Below, one piece after another: positions 13,008-26,884 of a stretch of 41,969 nucleotides of DNA. The translations under genes and the position numbers were made by a program. The stretch is taken from IMG/VR virus record IMGVR_UViG_3300032236_000430, positions 1 through 41,969 of that record; one strand, 5' to 3'. Source of the DNA: a virus. The notes under the pieces were generated by a model that was not told the DNA's origin, searched no databases, and worked only from the letters and a program-made list of their open reading frames with translations. Numbering within the stretch: the first letter of the stretch is position 1; each line of letters starts with the position of its first letter.

Positions 13008-13103
13008 TGGGATACCTCACTTAGGGGCTGGGTTTGGGTAAAAGGTTAGGGTATTGATTTTGGGCATAGCCCTGGTTATATGTATATATATTATATGATA
13101 TAT

Positions 13104-13152
13104 CTGATTGATTGAGGAGCGTGTAGCTTCAAGCGAAACGCTCTGATTGATT
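13104..13152. repeat. CTGATTGATT direct repeats flanking an inverted repeat
   Basis: CTGATTGATT occurs at 13104-13113 and 13143-13152. Between the copies lie GAGCGT (13117-13122) and its complement ACGCTC (13138-13143), which can form a stem with a 15-base loop that itself contains GCTTCAAGC. TATATA tracts flank the unit on both sides. The layout suggests a protein-binding site or an origin element. Confidence 0.6.
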
Positions 13153-13220
13153 TATATATACATATAAGATAACCTGTATATTTGATATAAAACCGACTTT
13201 TATTTTGAAATATTTTTACA

Positions 13221-13238
13221 ATGTGACTGAAGTCACAT
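13221..13238. promoter_or_regulatory. Perfect CRP/GlxR-type operator
   Basis: The palindrome ATGTGAC-TGAA-GTCACAT contains TGTGA-N6-TCACA, the classic binding site of cAMP receptor protein family regulators, including actinobacterial GlxR/Crp. No CRP-like gene is visible in the phage, so a host regulator would be the reader. Confidence 0.6.
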
Positions 13239-13361
13239 GATTATTGTCCTAGTATGTCCTATTTTGTATATATTATAGGGGGGCTATATTTATAAAAATT
13301 ATTTTGGGTGATACTCAATCAATCTTACACTCATAATTAAAACTCCCCAGGTCAAATATAA

Positions 13362-13388
13362 TTGAAAGTTCAACTATTGAATATTCAA
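13362..13388. promoter_or_regulatory. Two adjacent TTGAA-N2-TTCAA palindromes
   Basis: TTGAAAGTTCAA (13362-13373) and TTGAATATTCAA (13377-13388) have centres 15 bp apart. The second is a perfect 12-bp palindrome. Paired palindromes are typical of cooperative repressor binding, but the ligand is unknown. Confidence 0.45.
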
Positions 13389-13408
13389 CTACCTAGCCTT
13401 GAACATAT

Positions 13409-13426
13409 TGCGCCCATTGGGGCGCA
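13409..13426. repeat. G/C-rich inverted repeat TGCGCCC-ATTG-GGGCGCA
   Basis: A perfect 7-bp stem with a four-base loop. A run of five T begins about 11 bases downstream on the plus strand, too far for a standard intrinsic terminator. It may still be an operator or an RNA stem. Confidence 0.4.
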
Positions 13427-13512
13427 TATTCCTAGTGTTTTTCGGGTGTCTTGGTGTTTTCTGGTGAACTATCAAAGGCACACCATTAGGGGGCAAGGAA
13501 TAGAAGCTCTTT

Positions 13513-13765: not shown

Positions 13766-13809
13766 TTTCCTAGTGGGCAACACCGCCCGCCAAAATGAAA
13801 GGTAAAAAA

Positions 13810-14424
13810 ATGACCGCAAAGCCAAAGACAGCAACACCAGCAAAGACCGCAAAGACCACAGAAGTTTCAGAGGAATTGGTATCGGCGTACCTCGCTCTCG
13901 CGACGGGTCGCAATTCTTCAACATGGGAATTCTTCGCGGAAGCATTGAAGTATTCTGTGCGTGTTCGCAAGGACTCAATCGCAAAGGCTCAGAAGGACAC
14001 AGGGTTCAGCCTTTCAGATGTGACCCCTACCAAGAGCCAGTATTTTGAGACTCTCGCCCGCATGGAGAAGAAATTTCACCTATCCCAGTCCATGCCGTTT
14101 GCCAAAGCGATCTCCCTCGCTGGCAAAGCAGACGTGACCTTGAAGGCTGAAGGAGCGCGCGCGCTGGTCACCAAGTCAAAGACCGTCGAAGCGTTTGCCG
14201 AAGCCCTACCAAAGACCACCCGCAAAGCCCGCCCCGCTTCTGAGAAGTCAGAGGGAGAATTTTCGGGAGAGGTTTCAGATATTCTCGCCCTCTCCATTGA
14301 AGAGATCTTGGAGAGTGTGGTCGATCTCGCTCAGCGCGAGACTTCCGAAGAGCGCGAAGAGATCGCCAAGCGTTTAACCGCCGTCGCGAAGTTAGTCCGC
14401 GCCATGAATACGGTCAGCGCATAG
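13810..14424 (+). CDS. Early hydrophilic protein, unknown, possibly DNA-binding
   Basis: A 204-residue, charged, soluble protein with a Lys/Thr/Ala-rich N-terminus (PKTATPAKTAK). The helical middle is followed by a helical acidic C-terminus (EEILESVVDLAQRETSEEREE). I chose ATG 13810 because AAAGG lies at the right distance, whereas an in-frame ATG at 13795 has no ribosome site. The segment around residues 58-90 could be a helix-turn-helix, but this is not clear. The gene stands alone between the control hub and a strong terminator, so it is probably expressed early and abundantly. It could be a transcription or replication regulator, possibly the reader of the 16-bp palindrome; that is conjecture. 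Confidence 0.7.
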   Translation: MTAKPKTATPAKTAKTTEVSEELVSAYLALATGRNSSTWEFFAEALKYSVRVRKDSIAKAQKDTGFSLSDVTPTKSQYFETLARMEKKFHLSQSMPFAKAISLAGKADVTLKAEGARALVTKSKTVEAFAEALPKTTRKARPASEKSEGEFSGEVSDILALSIEEILESVVDLAQRETSEEREEIAKRLTAVAKLVRAMNTVSA

Positions 14425-14440
14425 TCTGACCCGATCAGAT

Positions 14441-14477
14441 AACCCTCGCGCCTTCGGGCGCGGGGGTTATTTTTTTG
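14441..14477 (+). terminator. Strong intrinsic terminator after first early gene
   Basis: A 12-bp stem (AACCCTCGCGCC / GGCGCGGGGGTT, one T-G pair) with a TTCG tetraloop is followed by TA and a run of seven T, beginning 16 bases after the stop codon. It isolates the first early gene from the downstream operon. Confidence 0.92.
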
Positions 14478-14490
14478 TCCAAAAATTCGG

Positions 14491-14511
14491 CCAACACAAA
14501 CCAACACAAAC
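14491..14511 (+). repeat. Tandem CCAACACAAA repeat (11-mer copies 1 and 2)
   Basis: CCAACACAAAC occurs at 14491-14501 and 14501-14511, overlapping by one base so the period is 10 bp. A third copy is at 14597-14607. Further single copies lie in coding DNA at 15907, 18323, 20564 and 26642, all on the plus strand. Confidence 0.8.
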
Positions 14512-14519
14512 TCTCGGCT

Positions 14520-14549
14520 GGCGTATGACGGCGTATGATGGAGTCTGAT
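14520..14549 (+). repeat. Three tandem 10-bp repeats (GGCGTATGAY type)
   Basis: GGCGTATGAC, GGCGTATGAT and GGAGTCTGAT follow one another with exact 10-bp spacing, so equivalent faces repeat once per helical turn. The array ends six bases before palindrome copy 2. Confidence 0.55.
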
Positions 14550-14555
14550 CGCGCC

Positions 14556-14571
14556 GTACGGGATACCGTAC
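14556..14571 (+). promoter_or_regulatory. 16-bp early palindrome, copy 2
   Basis: GTACGGGATACCGTAC, identical to copies 1 and 3, in the 325-bp gap between the terminator and the next gene. No good promoter was found at the distance seen for copies 3 and 4. Confidence 0.8.
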
Positions 14572-14649
14572 AGGCTATTTAGCCCGTCTAAAATTTCCAA
14601 CACAAACTATTGACGATTACTGATGACGGCTGATTAAGGATTTGGTCGC

Positions 14650-14678
14650 TTGACCTAACATGTGATCTAGGTTATACT
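14650..14678 (+). promoter_or_regulatory. Near-consensus sigma70 promoter of early operon
   Basis: TTGACC (14650-14655), a 17-base spacer and TATACT (14673-14678) match the vegetative sigma consensus at 5 of 6 bases in each box. Transcription would start near 14685, so the palindrome at 14716 falls in the early transcribed leader. Confidence 0.75.
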
Positions 14679-14715
14679 TGAGGTACTGGTCAGGGAACTA
14701 GCCCGAGCCACAAGT

Positions 14716-14731
14716 GTACGGGATACCGTAC
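14716..14731 (+). promoter_or_regulatory. 16-bp early palindrome, copy 3 (leader operator)
   Basis: GTACGGGATACCGTAC, beginning 43 bp after the start of the -10 box of the 14650 promoter and 19 bp before the GTG start of the next gene. The position suits a roadblock or operator acting just after initiation. Confidence 0.8.
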
Positions 14732-14749
14732 AGATAACGGAGTAGAAAA

Positions 14750-15043
14750 GTGAGCATTATCCAAAATCGCTCAGTAGTCAAAGCAAGTCCTAGCAAGTTA
14801 GGAACATCAGGAGCGCGTCTCTCAGATACGCCTCATGGTCGCCCAGTACCAGCACCAAAGACTCACGCAAAGAGTGAGCGCACAGTTCTTCAAGGGTTAA
14901 AGCAAGTTATCTATCGCGACCTCAACGCTGAGCGCGAAGCCCTAGAAGAGTGGTCTGATGAATACTCAACTAACCGAGCAAAGATTGAGAGCAACCTACG
15001 CCGTCAGCGTGAGGCTCTCGCGACACTAGCAGATTGGGAATAA
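14750..15043 (+). CDS. Small early protein with C-terminal helical region
   Basis: A 97-residue protein starting at GTG 14750, seven bases after GGAG. The first 45 residues are Ser/Pro/Lys-rich and probably disordered. The rest (GLKQVIYRDLNAEREALEEW and on) is an amphipathic helical segment with coiled-coil potential. It is the first gene after the 14650 promoter and its operator-like palindrome. No family was recognised. Confidence 0.7.
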   Translation: MSIIQNRSVVKASPSKLGTSGARLSDTPHGRPVPAPKTHAKSERTVLQGLKQVIYRDLNAEREALEEWSDEYSTNRAKIESNLRRQREALATLADWE

Positions 15044-15045
15044 TC

Positions 15046-15207
15046 ATGAAACTCACAAAGCGTGGCGAGATCGTGTTCGCCGTATCCCTAGTCATCTCAG
15101 CCTTCACCATCATGTTCGGCTTCATGTGGCTAATTGACCATATCAACTGGGTCGGAGATCACTACTGCTTCCACTCATCTCTCGTCTGCTATGGATTGGA
15201 TAAGTAA
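15046..15207 (+). CDS. Single-pass membrane miniprotein (53 aa)
   Basis: ATG 15046 gives 53 residues. After a basic start (MKLTKRGE) residues 9-31 form one hydrophobic transmembrane helix (FAVSLVISAFTIMFGFMWLI). The short C-terminal part contains two Cys and two His (HYCFHSSLVC). The positive N-terminus suggests an N-inside orientation with the Cys/His part outside. GGGA precedes the start. Small early membrane proteins are often host-takeover or superinfection-exclusion factors, but nothing here proves that. Confidence 0.65.
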   Translation: MKLTKRGEIVFAVSLVISAFTIMFGFMWLIDHINWVGDHYCFHSSLVCYGLDK

Positions 15208-15311
15208 TGCGCAATCTATACCTCGTCATCAAGTGGCGCCTCGCACTACGCAAGGTCAAAGCCTCAGACTTCGGATCTCCTGAGTCTCCCGTAAGTGTTA
15301 CGGTCGTTTGA
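15207..15311 (+). CDS. Possible 34-aa basic peptide
   Basis: The ATG shares a base with the preceding stop (TAATG) and the 34-residue frame (MRNLYLVIKWRLALRKVKAS and on) is amphipathic and basic. Its TGA stop lies inside the -35 box of the next promoter. The start geometry supports translation, but a peptide this short cannot be confirmed by sequence alone. Confidence 0.4.
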   Translation: MRNLYLVIKWRLALRKVKASDFGSPESPVSVTVV

Positions 15312-15336
15312 CATAACACCCAAAATAGTCTAAGAT
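15308..15336 (+). promoter_or_regulatory. Near-consensus sigma70 promoter before amidoligase operon
   Basis: Perfect TTGACA (15308-15313), a 17-base spacer and TAAGAT (15331-15336). The leader to the amidoligase ATG is about 75 bases and contains palindrome copy 4. Confidence 0.8.
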
Positions 15337-15372
15337 TATCTCATAATTAAATATAGATTTCAGTTCTAGACC

Positions 15373-15388
15373 GTACGGTATTCCGTAC
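15373..15388 (+). promoter_or_regulatory. 16-bp early palindrome, copy 4 (leader operator)
   Basis: GTACGGTATTCCGTAC has perfect half-sites and differs from copies 5 and 6 at one central base. It starts 42 bp after the start of the -10 box, nearly the same geometry as copy 3 at the 14650 promoter. Confidence 0.8.
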
Positions 15389-15416
15389 AGTCGCTATCTA
15401 CTAGAAAGGATACAAA

Positions 15417-22327: not shown

Positions 22328-22674
22328 TAGTCCGCCTCCTTAAGAAGCCACTCTAGTATTCCTTGATTGTCCTTCAGCATGTCCACAATATGGAAACCCA
22401 CAATGTCGCACACTTCCTCTACATCAAATCGCTTACGACCAGCCATAGTTGACTCATCGATGATAGCGTGTGTCACTTCGTGCATGAGCACTCGTGCCAT
22501 TTTGTCTGACTGCATATCATTGCGCAGACGAATGAGGTTGGCCGTTGATAGAGTCAAACCGTAGGTTTCCTGCTCATCGGGATCGGTGTGCAGGTCATAC
22601 ACCACGCGATATTTTTGCCCAAAAATTTTCAGGGAAGTTGGGCGTTTAATCACTCGGCCACGCTCCCCGCTCAA
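22327..22674 (-). CDS. HExxH metalloprotease-like protein
   Basis: A 115-residue protein with VLMHEVTHAI at about residues 62-71, the zinc-binding HExxH signature, placed as in small SprT/ImmA-like proteins. A strand-rich N-terminus (KIFGQKYRVVYD) precedes it and a helical C-terminus follows. A third zinc ligand is not obvious, so proteolytic activity is uncertain. ImmA-like proteins cleave repressors, which makes a regulatory role conceivable. Confidence 0.65.
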   Translation of the reverse strand: MSGERGRVIKRPTSLKIFGQKYRVVYDLHTDPDEQETYGLTLSTANLIRLRNDMQSDKMARVLMHEVTHAIIDESTMAGRKRFDVEEVCDIVGFHIVDMLKDNQGILEWLLKEAD

Positions 22675-22939
22675 CCAGCAAGGCTATGACGGAGTAATTT
22701 GCCATGTCCTTAAAAGAGTCAGCAAGCGGTTCATTTCTAGCCTCGGATTGGCTGTCGATGAGATGGTTAATACGAGCGAACTTGTCCCACATTCGCACAC
22801 GTAGTCCGTTAAGTGGCCCGCCTGGGCTATGCGATATGTTCTTTGGACCGTAGTCGTGGTGCTTTCGCAAGAGCAACGCTTCGAGTTCGGAGAATACTTC
22901 ATGAACTTCTTCCTCAAATGTCTTCATTAAGTAATTCAT
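22646..22939 (-). CDS. DUF1599-type nucleotide-modification-associated protein
   Basis: A 97-residue helical protein. HHDYGPKNI, then GLRVRMWDKFARINHLI and DMANYSVIALLV match the DUF1599 family, also called nucleotide modification associated domain 1. Family members occur near DNA-modification genes in phages, but their chemistry is unproven. Two starts are possible, ATG 22939 and ATG 22927, neither with a clear ribosome site; both overlap the upstream gene. No obvious thymidylate-synthase-like or base-modifying partner was seen. Confidence 0.75.
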   Translation of the reverse strand: MNYLMKTFEEEVHEVFSELEALLLRKHHDYGPKNISHSPGGPLNGLRVRMWDKFARINHLIDSQSEARNEPLADSFKDMANYSVIALLVERGAWPSD

Positions 22940-23255
22940 CCAATTCGCTAGACAACTTGTGAGGGTGGAATTCTGCTACCAGAAGAATGGAGTAGATTTC
23001 TTCTGATAGTTCACGGATCATGTCAGGGTCGTCAGCGTTGTCGTAGAAGGTACGCATGAGGTTACCCATACGGATAGCCGATGATTCGCCTAGTGGGTAG
23101 TACGGATCAAATGGTTCGCCGTCCATCTCGTCGAGGAGGTGATCTGCCTCATCAAAAATGGTGGAAAAAATTTCGCCACAATAGTCACATTGCTTAACGG
23201 CAACGTAGGCTAATGACGCGCCTAGGGCGCTAGGTAGTTCTGCGTACTCAGTCAT
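22914..23255 (-). CDS. Acidic unknown protein with one CxxC
   Basis: A 113-residue protein with 30 or so acidic residues, a single CDYC pair at about residues 23-26 and a helical C-terminus (IRELSEEIYSILLVAEFH). Its ATG overlaps the stop of the primase gene (AATGACTGAG). No family was recognised. Confidence 0.65.
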   Translation of the reverse strand: MTEYAELPSALGASLAYVAVKQCDYCGEIFSTIFDEADHLLDEMDGEPFDPYYPLGESSAIRMGNLMRTFYDNADDPDMIRELSEEIYSILLVAEFHPHKLSSELDELLNEDI

Positions 23256-23871
23256 TCAGTCCTGCTTTCTCTAGTAGATAATCTTTGCCGTACTTAACAT
23301 AACAACTATTCACATCTTCTCCGTCGGGAAGTCCGACGATGGTGACGGGTAGATCTTTCGAGAGACCTTTAGCAAACTCAAGTCCAGGCTGGTCTCCGTC
23401 TGCGAAGATGAAGACTCGCTCGAAGTCTTGGAGGAGTCGGGTGTAGTGTGGCTTCCACGAGTTCGCTCCAGGGACACCCACGCTCGGTATGCCCACAGAC
23501 TTAGAAAGAGTAATGGTATCCAGTTCACCTTCACACAATCCAATCCAATCGCCTGCGCGATCAATGTCCTTCACGTTATACAACTTGGTAACCGCACCAG
23601 TCATGCCCATGTACTTAGGCTCAACGGCTGGGTTAAGCGAGCGGAAACGGATATCAACTACGCCAGTCTTGGTAACATAAGGGATTGCTAGTCGTCCTTG
23701 GAAAGCCTCGTGGCCTACCTCAGGATGCTCGACTACGCCTAACTGAGCCGATAAGGCTACTTCCTTTGTTATGCCCCGACTTCGAAGGTAGTCGGCTGCC
23801 ATATCTATGCTCGCCGCGTACTTCGCTGTAGCTCTTTCCAGTAATTCTCTCTGCGAATGTCCTTGCTTCAC
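23248..23871 (-). CDS. Primase TOPRIM subunit
   Basis: GTG 23871, about ten bases after GAGGGG, gives 207 residues. Residues 10-47 resemble the linker of DnaG-type primases (AADYLRSRGITKEVALSAQLG), followed by RGRLAIPY-like QGRLAIPY. The TOPRIM core has CEGELD at 113-118 and ADGDQPG at 157-163, giving the conserved Glu and Asp-x-Asp that bind metal. With the overlapping CHC2 protein it forms a complete primase. Upstream of the GTG this frame is closed by TAA two codons earlier, so a single protein would require a +1 shift within the 152-base overlap. Confidence 0.85.
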   Translation of the reverse strand: MKQGHSQRELLERATAKYAASIDMAADYLRSRGITKEVALSAQLGVVEHPEVGHEAFQGRLAIPYVTKTGVVDIRFRSLNPAVEPKYMGMTGAVTKLYNVKDIDRAGDWIGLCEGELDTITLSKSVGIPSVGVPGANSWKPHYTRLLQDFERVFIFADGDQPGLEFAKGLSKDLPVTIVGLPDGEDVNSCYVKYGKDYLLEKAGLND

Positions 23872-24088
23872 GAATGGTTATCCCCTCTTGCTTGGCAATG
23901 ATCTGTAGTGAGTTGCCACCGACACCACAAGTAAAACAATTGAATAAATTCTTGCTAAAGTTAATGCCCGCACTGGCGTGACGGTCGTCATGGAACGGGC
24001 ATTTGATACTTCCTGAGCCTGAGGTGCGGTAGGTAACGCCCCCGTAATGCTTGATGACTTCTCCGATATCAGGTAGTTCGTCGCTCAT
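23720..24088 (-). CDS. Primase CHC2 zinc-binding subunit
   Basis: A 122-residue protein. Residues 24-60 carry the CHC2 zinc site: Cys 30, His 33, Cys 51 and Cys 54 (KCPFHDD and NCFTCGVGG). This is the DNA-recognition module of DnaG-type primases. After about residue 70 the frame continues as low-complexity Ser/Arg/Gly sequence that coincides with the TOPRIM start in another frame. The 152-base overlap and unnatural C-terminus suggest that the useful protein ends early or shifts into the TOPRIM frame. Confidence 0.85.
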   Translation of the reverse strand: MSDELPDIGEVIKHYGGVTYRTSGSGSIKCPFHDDRHASAGINFSKNLFNCFTCGVGGNSLQIIAKQEGITIREARTFAERITGKSYSEVRGEHRYGSRLPSKSGHNKGSSLIGSVRRSRAS

Positions 24089-24444
24089 AAAACGTCTCCC
24101 AATCTGATAACTAAGTAAGCATCTTCTATGCTTTTTCCTCGGGCTTTGATGAGCGCGACCCCGAGTGTACCTGTAGATAGATTTCGCGCATCAGCGAAGT
24201 GACTGCGTTCAAGCCTTGCCTCTCTAATCCATCCAGATAGGTCAATACTTCCATCTCGTCCAGGTGCTTTACACTCGACAACCACGTGCTTATGTCCGAG
24301 CCACTCCCGAACGACAACGTCACCTTCATCTTTGGCGCCTGTACGGGCCAATCGTTCGGCCTCGTACCCTTTGCTTCTGAATAGATCTTTAGTGTCCGTT
24401 TCAAAGGTCGCTCCCCGAGCCTTGTGGCTCGCTCTCGTCACCAT
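24085..24444 (-). CDS. PD-(D/E)XK nuclease, resolvase-like
   Basis: A 119-residue protein with the restriction-endonuclease-like core: Glu 16 or so in the first helix, GDVVV at 41-45 and VVVECKAP at 54-61 (Glu-x-Lys), then a helix SGWIREARLER. The layout resembles archaeal-type Holliday junction resolvases and related actinophage proteins. It would resolve branched replication or recombination products. It overlaps the CHC2 gene (ATGA). Confidence 0.72.
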   Translation of the reverse strand: MVTRASHKARGATFETDTKDLFRSKGYEAERLARTGAKDEGDVVVREWLGHKHVVVECKAPGRDGSIDLSGWIREARLERSHFADARNLSTGTLGVALIKARGKSIEDAYLVIRLGDVL

Positions 24445-24682
24445 CTACAACCACACTATCAGCATGAATATCAAGAGAAGCCACATCTTCTAGAGTCCCC
24501 GTTCTAATAAGTTTGATAGCAATCTTGTACGCCAATCTGGCGTCAATCTGCGTCTCTTTGTCTAAGCGATCTTGTACTAACTTGACTATATTCTCTCGCA
24601 TTACGCGCTCAGTTTCAACAAATACCTGCTTGAAGGTATCGAAGTCTGCTACTTGCTTCTCTGCTTTACGCTTATTACTCAT
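24401..24682 (-). CDS. Small unknown protein, helical with acidic tail
   Basis: A 93-residue protein. It starts with a basic MSNKRKAEKQ segment, has a long helix (FKQVFVETERVMRENIVKLV) and ends with an acidic tail (DGDESEPQGSGSDL). Its end overlaps the resolvase-like gene by 44 bases. It could be an accessory protein of the adjacent helicase-like ATPase. No family was recognised. Confidence 0.6.
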   Translation of the reverse strand: MSNKRKAEKQVADFDTFKQVFVETERVMRENIVKLVQDRLDKETQIDARLAYKIAIKLIRTGTLEDVASLDIHADSVVVDGDESEPQGSGSDL

Positions 24683-24690
24683 GTATGCTC

Positions 24691-25476
24691 CTAAGCATTC
24701 TCTGGGATATCATCTACATAGCAGTACTCACCTGAGAAAGCAAGCCATGTCATTACAGAATTTCCATTGGCGTCAGCCTTGCCATAGCGATTTTTAACCA
24801 CCGCACAGGCAAGGGACGAACCAACCAACCCAAGGGTAAGGATTAGTGCGGGTAGCTGGGCTACCTTTCCCTGTAGTGCGGAGCGTGGCTGACAAGGTGT
24901 ACCCTGTATTCCTTCACTGGTGTGGTGAAGAACTAACACCGCAGCATTTGTTGCTCTTGCTAGGTACTTTAACTCTTTCATAATGGCACGCATAGAAGCG
25001 AACTCCTCGCCACCATCGGTGGCTACGTCCATCAAGTTATCTACAACAATCAACTCAGGGGCTTGGCCCCATAGTTCTTCGAAAGCCTTGACTTCTTCAG
25101 CAATGTCCTCTAGCGTAGGGCTAGACTCGAAAGACCAAACAATGTGCGCACCACGAGATAGGACGGCACGAGTCCAACCTACGTCGTTGGTGAGCAAGTG
25201 CTCAACGTCCCCCTGCGATTTCCCCGAAATCATAGACGCCAAGCGCATAGCCATTGTGTGTGCGTTTGTATCCGCGGAAATGTACAGGGTTGGGACGTTG
25301 GTCTTTAAAGCAATAGCGAGAGCAAGCATAGACTTACCAGCGCCTGGGACTGCTGCGATCATCGTTAGTTCAGAACGGCGTACCGCAATCTGAGCACTAT
25401 GGAATGCTCGGAATGGGACTGGAAGGGGCTCTCCACCAATAGACGCCTTGCCGACAGACCGTGCTAAAGTTCTCAT
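24691..25476 (-). CDS. DnaB/RecA-like ATPase, probable replicative helicase
   Basis: A 261-residue protein with Walker A AAVPGAGKSM at about 41-50, Walker B LIVVDNLMD at about 141-149 and the RecA-fold motif VLVLHHTSEG. The fold is that of DnaB-like helicases or RecA-family ATPases (KaiC/RadA group). It lacks the DnaB N-terminal domain. It would unwind DNA together with the adjacent primase; a recombinase role is the alternative. Confidence 0.8.
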   Translation of the reverse strand: MRTLARSVGKASIGGEPLPVPFRAFHSAQIAVRRSELTMIAAVPGAGKSMLALAIALKTNVPTLYISADTNAHTMAMRLASMISGKSQGDVEHLLTNDVGWTRAVLSRGAHIVWSFESSPTLEDIAEEVKAFEELWGQAPELIVVDNLMDVATDGGEEFASMRAIMKELKYLARATNAAVLVLHHTSEGIQGTPCQPRSALQGKVAQLPALILTLGLVGSSLACAVVKNRYGKADANGNSVMTWLAFSGEYCYVDDIPENA

Positions 25477-25514
25477 GTGTTACCCCTTCCCATTCTAAAA
25501 TAGTGGTTGATCGA

Positions 25515-25898
25515 TTAGTTGACTGGCTTGCATTGGTCGGCTCCCTGCGGTTGGGTGCATACCCACATCGCGTAAGGCTTGCCCGTCTTCGAGGAGATTC
25601 CCGATTTGTGAAGTCGAGGTCCGTGAATACATGTCGGTCCTGTAGCGGACGCTGTCTGCACCGACGCGGGAGGCGAGAAGCTGGGAGGCGGAGTGCTTGC
25701 GGTGAAACTCGATGTCGATAAAGGGGCTACCGTAAAGGCACCTGCAATCTTAGCCTGCGTGGCTGCGATCTGAGTGGCGTAGTCGCCAACTGCCTCGAGG
25801 TTTACCGAGAGTTCCTCTGCCGTGTTAGCACGGATATTGATAAGATCACCTGCTGGTGTCTTGTAGGAGACTTGCATCTTCCAGTCGTCATTACCCAT
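25515..25898 (-). CDS. Replication-region protein with C-terminal zinc-like motif
   Basis: A 127-residue protein. The N-terminal half is a small folded region (WKMQVSYKTPAGDLINIRAN and a helix). A Ser/Thr/Pro-rich linker follows at about 50-87, then a Cys/His motif at 89-125 (CIHGPRLHKSG, MWVC, ADQC). Similar Cys-rich tails occur in small actinophage proteins placed beside the helicase. It may bind single-stranded DNA, but this is inference. It overlaps the upstream gene by eight bases. Confidence 0.65.
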   Translation of the reverse strand: MGNDDWKMQVSYKTPAGDLINIRANTAEELSVNLEAVGDYATQIAATQAKIAGAFTVAPLSTSSFTASTPPPSFSPPASVQTASATGPTCIHGPRLHKSGISSKTGKPYAMWVCTQPQGADQCKPVN

Positions 25899-26076
25899 TG
25901 TTTAGTCCTTCGTTCGTTGGAGCCTGTACAAAGATACCTTCCGCACCTACTGGTGGGACGAGAGCGTCATCCGCTGGTACGTTCTCGAAACCGAGACGCT
26001 CACGCGCTTCTGCTGCAGTGATGATGCGTAGTTGGAATGCGCCGAGTACCTCGGTCGCTGTTAGTTCGAGTGCCAT
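25891..26076 (-). CDS. Small unknown protein (61 aa)
   Basis: A 61-residue protein with a helix pair (LTATEVLGAFQLRIITAAEARERLGF) and a Pro-rich end. The segment ITAAEARERLG resembles a short motif seen near the C-terminus of some portal proteins, but alone that is not evidence of function. It starts directly after the exonuclease gene. Confidence 0.55.
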   Translation of the reverse strand: MALELTATEVLGAFQLRIITAAEARERLGFENVPADDALVPPVGAEGIFVQAPTNEGLNNG

Positions 26077-26691
26077 CTATCCTTCTTTCTTAGTTGAGAA
26101 TGTACATTCCTTGCTAAAGCCACACAGTTTACAACTTGAGGCATTGGGGATAAAGATACCCTGCTTGCGTGCCTTGTCAAATTGATTCACTAAGTACTCC
26201 AGTTTTTCGTAGGTGTAATCGCTGAGATCCACCCACTCCGACATGGACGCTTTACGTGCCATGTAGAAGTTACCAAACTTAATCTCTACGCCGTAGGCTA
26301 CTTCGATAGCCACCTTGTAGAAACCAAGTTGCAATGTTGAGAGGTACTGCTCGCTAGAAGAAGTCTTGAGGTCGATGATAACCAACTGGCCATCCACCTC
26401 GAAGATACGATCGATACCAACCTTGATAGGTATGTTACCGATAGGTACTTCCAACTCTAGTTCTACTGCCTTGACCCCTGTAGGGGTAGTCCAAATCTTC
26501 CAATTTGGATTAGCCTTACGCCATGTGATGTAGTCCTCCACGAAGGTAACACCCTGCTTTTGCCATTGCGTGACGTCTTCCTTGTTGGGATTAGCCTTGG
26601 TAGCACGACCCGATACTCGGGCGTTCGTTAAATCCTTATCTCCAACACAAACTTTCCACGCTTCTGCCCATAACTCATTCGCCAGTGCCAC
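26077..26691 (-). CDS. Cas4/RecB-like exonuclease, C-terminal half of a split gene
   Basis: GTG 26691 lies six bases after GGAG and gives 204 residues; a TTG at 26703 is the alternative. The PD-(D/E)XK core has Asp 94 (VGIDRIF), Asp 107 and Lys 109 (VIIDLKT) and a Gln in LQLGFY. The C-terminus has Cys 187, Cys 190 and Cys 196 (C-x2-C-x5-C), the three C-terminal ligands of the 4Fe-4S cluster in Cas4/AddB-type nucleases. The fourth Cys and the conserved His of this family are in the N-terminal half, encoded separately at 26877-27077. Both halves must associate for a complete enzyme. It would resect or recombine DNA ends. Confidence 0.85.
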   Translation of the reverse strand: MALANELWAEAWKVCVGDKDLTNARVSGRATKANPNKEDVTQWQKQGVTFVEDYITWRKANPNWKIWTTPTGVKAVELELEVPIGNIPIKVGIDRIFEVDGQLVIIDLKTSSSEQYLSTLQLGFYKVAIEVAYGVEIKFGNFYMARKASMSEWVDLSDYTYEKLEYLVNQFDKARKQGIFIPNASSCKLCGFSKECTFSTKKEG

Positions 26692-26884
26692 AGAATACTC
26701 CAATGTACTTGACGCCCTTTTGGGGCTTCTTGTCGGGCATGTCGGATGCTAGGAAGATGTCGTACTTGGCACCTTCTAGGCTTAGTTTGCTAGGACGACG
26801 GGTGTGTCCGTACTCGTCTTTGGTAACTGGCATATCCATAAGAGCACCGTCTTTTGGTCCCCAGTAAAGTTCAAGGTTATTCAT
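26675..26884 (-). CDS. Small gene nested between the exonuclease halves (69 aa)
   Basis: ATG 26884 follows a perfect AGGAGG six bases upstream. The 69-residue product (MNNLELYWGPKDGALMDMPV then KLSLEGAKYDIFLASD) looks like a small beta-rich domain and is unlike either exonuclease half. It overlaps the N-half by eight bases and the C-half by 17, so all three are translated as a coupled series. Its function is unknown; it might bridge the nuclease halves or be an inserted gene. Confidence 0.75.
   Translation of the reverse strand: MNNLELYWGPKDGALMDMPVTKDEYGHTRRPSKLSLEGAKYDIFLASDMPDKKPQKGVKYIGVFCGTGE

Follow-up and report, generated by a model that had tools for sequence, protein, structure and literature searches.

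A short asymmetric sequence that recurs along one strand of a phage genome, whatever the direction of the genes around it, raises the question of what reads it and what is done to the DNA there. The window analyzed here is the whole 41,969-base virus record of a freshwater phage whose gene set is of the actinophage type (WhiB, a sigma-like factor, a DnaB-like helicase, a TOPRIM protein and a PD-(D/E)XK/Cas4-like nuclease); its late genes lie on the minus strand, an early plus-strand operon spans 13.8–20.0 kb and minus-strand early genes follow at 20.3–26.9 kb. The exact 11-mer CCAACACAAAC occurs in this window seven times on the plus strand (starting at 14491, 14501, 14597, 15907, 18323, 20564 and 26642) and not once on the minus strand. 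As 100 dinucleotide shuffles of the window yielded no copy, the claim of the initial annotation that there are seven plus-strand copies beyond chance holds, coordinates included. Single-mismatch versions of the motif are absent from the window, against a mean of 0.89 in the shuffles.

Location of the copies in the window

Three copies are intergenic, two lie in plus-strand genes and two, as had also been annotated initially, in minus-strand genes. The first two form a tandem pair (14491–14511) with a one-base overlap and a period of 10, right behind the intrinsic terminator (14440–14478, plus strand, recognized from its sequence and conserved in relatives) of o209, a fast-evolving orphan protein gene (13795–14424, plus strand) whose product is a possible accessory factor. 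The third member of this intergenic cluster (14597–14607) stands 5′ of a sigma-70-like promoter. The plus-strand genes concerned encode an amidoligase (15417–16628, copy at 15907–15917) and a transglycosylase-like protein (18245–18637, copy at 18323–18333); the amidoligase copy is missing at the same place in four relatives (G025–G027 and G003). Antisense to their genes are the copies in the sigma-factor-like gene (20323–21003, copy at 20564–20574) and near the start of the Cas4/RecB-like nuclease gene (26077–26703, copy at 26642–26652).

Other features of the window are recorded here in their own right. The region between the divergent terL and o209 genes (13008–13470) is AT-rich and holds 15-nt inverted repeats (TTATATGTATATATA / TATATATACATATAA). 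The palindrome GTACGGKATMCCGTAC has eight copies (13678, 14556, 14716, 15373, 15742, 16529, 17923 and 20299), several of them just 5′ of early genes; because related phages carry other palindromes in the same places (TGTATTAAATTAATACA, GTTCGGCTAACCGAAC and TGTAAGATAATCTTACG), this suggests a repressor whose operator varies between phages. The DnaB-like helicase (24691–25476) matches 1451 phage records, mostly of Mycobacterium and Streptomyces phages. Adjacent genes for the amidoligase and a glutamine amidotransferase (15417–17606) are a pair that is also found in the nick-bearing phage tf.

Strictness and polarity of the motif in related phages

The tandem pair, with a period of 10 or 11, is present in 50 viral contigs, and a search of 84,980 bacterial and archaeal genomes returned three matches only. 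About 43 of the 50 contigs are relatives of the window phage, in which the pair lies between terL and the amidoligase gene, usually immediately 3′ of an intrinsic terminator, so that the initial proposal of the pair as the core of the system is borne out by its conservation and its position. Across 54 non-redundant early regions of related phages, four of them inverted-cluster records that were first turned to match, there are 153 forward copies of the exact 11-mer and no reverse copy. Among the 33 possible single substitutions only four are found forward, namely A3G (49 forward, 0 reverse), C1T (18/0), C11T (6/0) and C11A (1/0), which together give 74 forward and 0 reverse copies, and the remaining 29 account for no forward and two reverse copies. 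The working consensus for the family, YCRACACAAAY, does not rise above background where relatives lack the motif: six full genomes hold no match, and 1.16 Mb of loci hold three. Neither a balance of plus and minus copies nor fast decay of the motif with no positional conservation, which the initial annotation had named as outcomes that would speak against it, is seen in the relatives.

At the scale of whole genomes the strand changes with position. The 150 exact copies in cluster orientation in 44 canonical genomes all fall between about −1.2 and +12.2 kb from the cluster, and the opposite copies (33, in 27 of the 44) all lie at +10.3 kb or farther or beyond −7 kb; the sites therefore point away from each other around terL/o209 and toward each other around the Cas4-like gene. 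Polarity is strong, not absolute, since two lineages (L164/L340 and L341/L356) have the cluster, together with all its companions, turned around with respect to the genes, in L240 the reversal affects just the pair, and the degenerate consensus adds one forward site in the far region of G041. Contig ends near sites were not significantly enriched (5 versus 2.2 expected, P = 0.08), and a literature search for the 11-mer gave no phage paper among the matches listed.

The copies inside genes are selected as DNA

If the copies inside genes were by-products of the encoded proteins, they should be no better conserved than their surroundings and no more frequent than the codons allow. Across five close relatives, the longest invariant run of the sigma gene (15 nt, the next being 8) is the one at the motif copy, and the same holds for the Cas4-like nuclease gene (12 nt). 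In the transglycosylase-like gene, whose mean identity among five relatives is 43%, the invariant run at the copy is exactly 11 nt. All three copies occupy equal positions in five phages. Twelve motif-bearing phages hold 26 sense and 16 antisense copies within genes, against 0.7 and 1.3 expected when codons are reshuffled with the amino acids fixed, counts that rest on simple gene calls and may include a few intergenic copies. Codon-preserving shuffles also rule out a coding coincidence for the opposite copies in late genes. The PNTN peptide of the Cas4-like gene is encoded by the exact motif in 7/9 haplotypes with the HNH gene described below and in 0/4 without it (P = 0.02). The motif is therefore selected at the DNA level, and it is polar, strict and positionally conserved.

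A small HNH endonuclease gene accompanies the motif

A full-genome screen, queried with gene families from the proteins of the window and of the relative G047, left only two families that are present in all motif-bearing phages and in no motif-less phage: o209 (cut by the contig end in G052 and detected by the family profile in G058) and hnh97, a small HNH_3-type endonuclease gene (21731–22024, minus strand in the window). In counts over loci, which include redundant loci and some loci picked by the motif, o209 occurs in 66/66 with the motif and 0/61 without it, and hnh97 in 56/57 and 6/51, respectively. The one motif-bearing locus in which hnh97 was not seen is a fragment (L349), and all six motif-less loci with hnh97 are contig fragments of 4.6–10.4 kb. 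Loci found via the sigma protein alone divide in the same way, 13 having both o209 and the motif and 11 neither. Mapped onto a tree built from three early proteins, the HNH gene shows three changes of state, among them two separate losses with support of 1.0 and 0.97; these two clades lack motif and HNH gene alike.

The primase, DnaB, the Cas4-like nuclease, the sigma factor and the terminase were rejected as readers of the motif because these genes are present with and without it. This separates the two halves of the initial interpretation: a polar role at the DNA level is supported, as the conservation of the copies within genes exceeds what their codons require, and a CHC2/TOPRIM primase or Cas4/RecB-like nuclease as the reader is not, as motif-less relatives retain both genes; what the motif tracks is an HNH endonuclease that the initial annotation did not mention.

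The assignment of hnh97 as an endonuclease draws on a PF13392 (HNH_3) match in 8 of 12 members, all in relatives (best E = 2e-6, the window protein itself falling below the Pfam threshold), and on its PHROG assignment (HNH endonuclease). Members are 60–92% identical to the window protein and share 41 invariant residues, and H59, N76 and N85 are invariant in the 12 aligned members, forming a conserved His/Asn core. The mean pairwise identity of o209 is 23%, and profile and PDB searches with it returned nothing useful. As an invariant site fits an invariant protein, hnh97 is better suited than o209 to be the reader, and the case for o209 is further weakened by its absence from the unrelated motif-bearing phages considered below.

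This divergence also bears on the idea that the copies are iteron-like sites of a replication origin, with the tandem pair as core, the dispersed copies acting in cis and either o209 or a host initiator binding them. Such an origin would account for the intergenic direct repeats with helical phasing of about 10–11 bp in some 43 related contigs, for an o209 gene that always adjoins the repeats in the window family, and for a polarity that switches twice, close to the terL/o209 divergence and again close to cas4. We nevertheless consider it unlikely, as o209 evolves too fast for an invariant site, many of the copies are within genes at distances of up to 12 kb, and GC skew follows the gene strand and gives no origin signal at the motif site.

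Motif and hnh97 occur together in unrelated phages

Searching with hnh97 only, we found 79 loci that had not previously been collected; 56 of 71 further records carry the motif, against almost none for the reversed control. Six motif-bearing records of 26–90 kb that have no match to the window-type terL, DnaB or sigma proteins hold 4 to 11 copies, and o209 is absent from these six, which were read whole. In the opposite direction, a search with a longer form of the motif, its composite with the G-rich companion given below, yielded 13 new records of which 10 encode hnh97, the other three being two fragments below 32 kb and one record of 44 kb. The unrelated phages in which hnh97 and the motif occur together range up to about 97 kb in size, and we conclude that the motif is tied to hnh97 across such phages. 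An hnh97 gene is no guarantee of sites, since four unrelated records of 27–47 kb (G121, G136, G160 and G163) encode it and lack the motif.

In three of the six motif-bearing records without o209 (G111, G117 and G129) the copies are spaced about 0.5–1.5 kb apart within repeated intergenic elements that also contain a G-rich companion, GGGAGGGTGGG. A set of phages of about 90–97 kb and fragments of such phages (L495–L511, G137, G169, G170 and G176) has the 11-mer in repeated intergenic elements, sometimes as inverted pairs 50–130 nt apart; a spacing of about 70–130 nt applies to inverted pairs in some of the phages unrelated to the window family.

Elements of this kind, standing 5′ of genes in the ~90-kb phages, are what one would expect if the motif were a transcriptional or RNA-level regulatory element, such as an operator or a promoter part read by a phage or host factor, and the main cluster of the window family likewise sits between a terminator and an early promoter. 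We regard such a role as improbable, because copies under selection are found far inside genes, both along and against the direction of transcription, and because the cluster is inverted in some lineages in which the genes are not.

The presence of the same motif in unrelated phages would also follow if it were a host-determined signal, Chi-like or a site for some other host factor, with hnh97 being merely common in phages of the same hosts; that the sites point from terL/o209 toward cas4 on both arms resembles host motifs skewed from ori to ter. The scarcity of the tandem pair in bacterial and archaeal genomes (the three matches given above) and the coincidence of motif loss with hnh97 loss in the window family make this explanation very improbable.

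A proposed nick site of hnh97

The co-occurrence of hnh97 and motif, the reciprocal searches, the joint loss and a strand pattern like that of tf together point to hnh97 as the reader. The variants of the motif are few, of transition type and confined to its own strand, which is how the nick sites of tf are described (PMC3517423). We propose that the 11-mer is the recognition site of hnh97 and probably a strand-specific nick site, a reading that we judge to have about an even chance of being correct. hnh97 would read the 11-mer as an asymmetric recognition site and most likely cut a single strand at it, leaving localized single-chain interruptions such as those of tf, phiKMV and T5. In this scheme the tandem cluster 3′ of o209 would serve as the principal site, o209 may assist hnh97 in the window phage family, and the nicks might serve replication start, packaging or DNA flexibility. 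Against nicking it can be said that nickases usually read shorter sites, that a tandem pair is not obviously useful for it, and that the repeated intergenic elements of the ~90-kb phages, with their occasional inverted pairs, look regulatory; against hnh97 as the reader, four records encode it without the motif, the motif-bearing fragment L349 shows no hnh97, and host range could drive gene and motif alike. The main alternative is an origin or regulatory element, possibly read by a host factor.

More tentatively, and with considerable doubt on our part, the HNH protein and its 11-bp polar site may be a portable two-part module that has spread among unrelated phages and whose many strand-specific nicks act as programmed points of entry, at which replication might start or ordered packaging begin, with the site occurring in single, tandem and inverted-pair forms. 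If the motif is a nick site, these phages provide a widespread group in which site, candidate enzyme and lineages with natural loss can be compared.

Comparison with known systems

Iterons, as in R6K, P1 and the ori/crr of phage P4, combine helically spaced direct repeats with copies farther off. The window motif resembles them in each of these respects, and differs in that its copies are spread over more than 12 kb within genes, track an endonuclease and have no conserved initiator encoded nearby, o209 being divergent and absent from the unrelated phages. The stoperators and SAS of mycobacteriophages are short asymmetric sites repeated along the genome, as here; they are intergenic and oriented with transcription, whereas in the window some copies lie within genes and some run antisense.

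Nicks, or localized single-chain interruptions, have been described in phages since the 1960s, and their function is still called unclear (PMC3517423). Those of the phiKMV-like phages and T5 share with the window motif the restriction to one strand, a conserved consensus and several sites per genome (as described in PMC3517423), and differ in consensus sequence; in addition, phiKMV and phikF77 have no match to the hnh97 profile. The closer likeness is to phage tf, in which 14 single-strand nicks, all on one strand, were mapped within TACTRTGMC, with such sites on one strand at similar positions in LUZ24-like phages and single-substitution variants on the same strand only (PMC3517423). We count 14/0 sites per strand in tf, 9/0 in LUZ24 and 0/9 in PaP3. 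Both systems combine a strict asymmetric consensus with few tolerated substitutions, one strand whatever the gene direction, and positions that are similar between relatives and mostly in the early half of the genome. They differ in sequence, tf and its relatives have no tandem cluster, and the tf sites were mapped whereas those of the window are deduced from sequence.

The nickase of tf is not identified in PMC3517423. Among six phage genomes searched with the hnh97 profile, tf, LUZ24 and PaP3 each have one small HNH ORF of the same layout as hnh97, and phiKMV, phikF77 and ct2KA10 have no match; a reversed-sequence control was empty. In tf (L377, 16126–16413) and LUZ24 (L378, 15622–15933) the ORF overlaps, in a different reading frame, a gene that is annotated there. 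Its identity between tf and LUZ24 is 84%, compared with 39% for the frame of the annotation, and it has relatives in 264 phage records. Because small HNH genes are common in phages, we take this ORF as a lead to a candidate nickase of the tf/LUZ24 phages and not as proof. If the window motif is such a nick site, a concrete and partly unannotated HNH gene can be proposed as the enzyme behind the tf/LUZ24 nicks.
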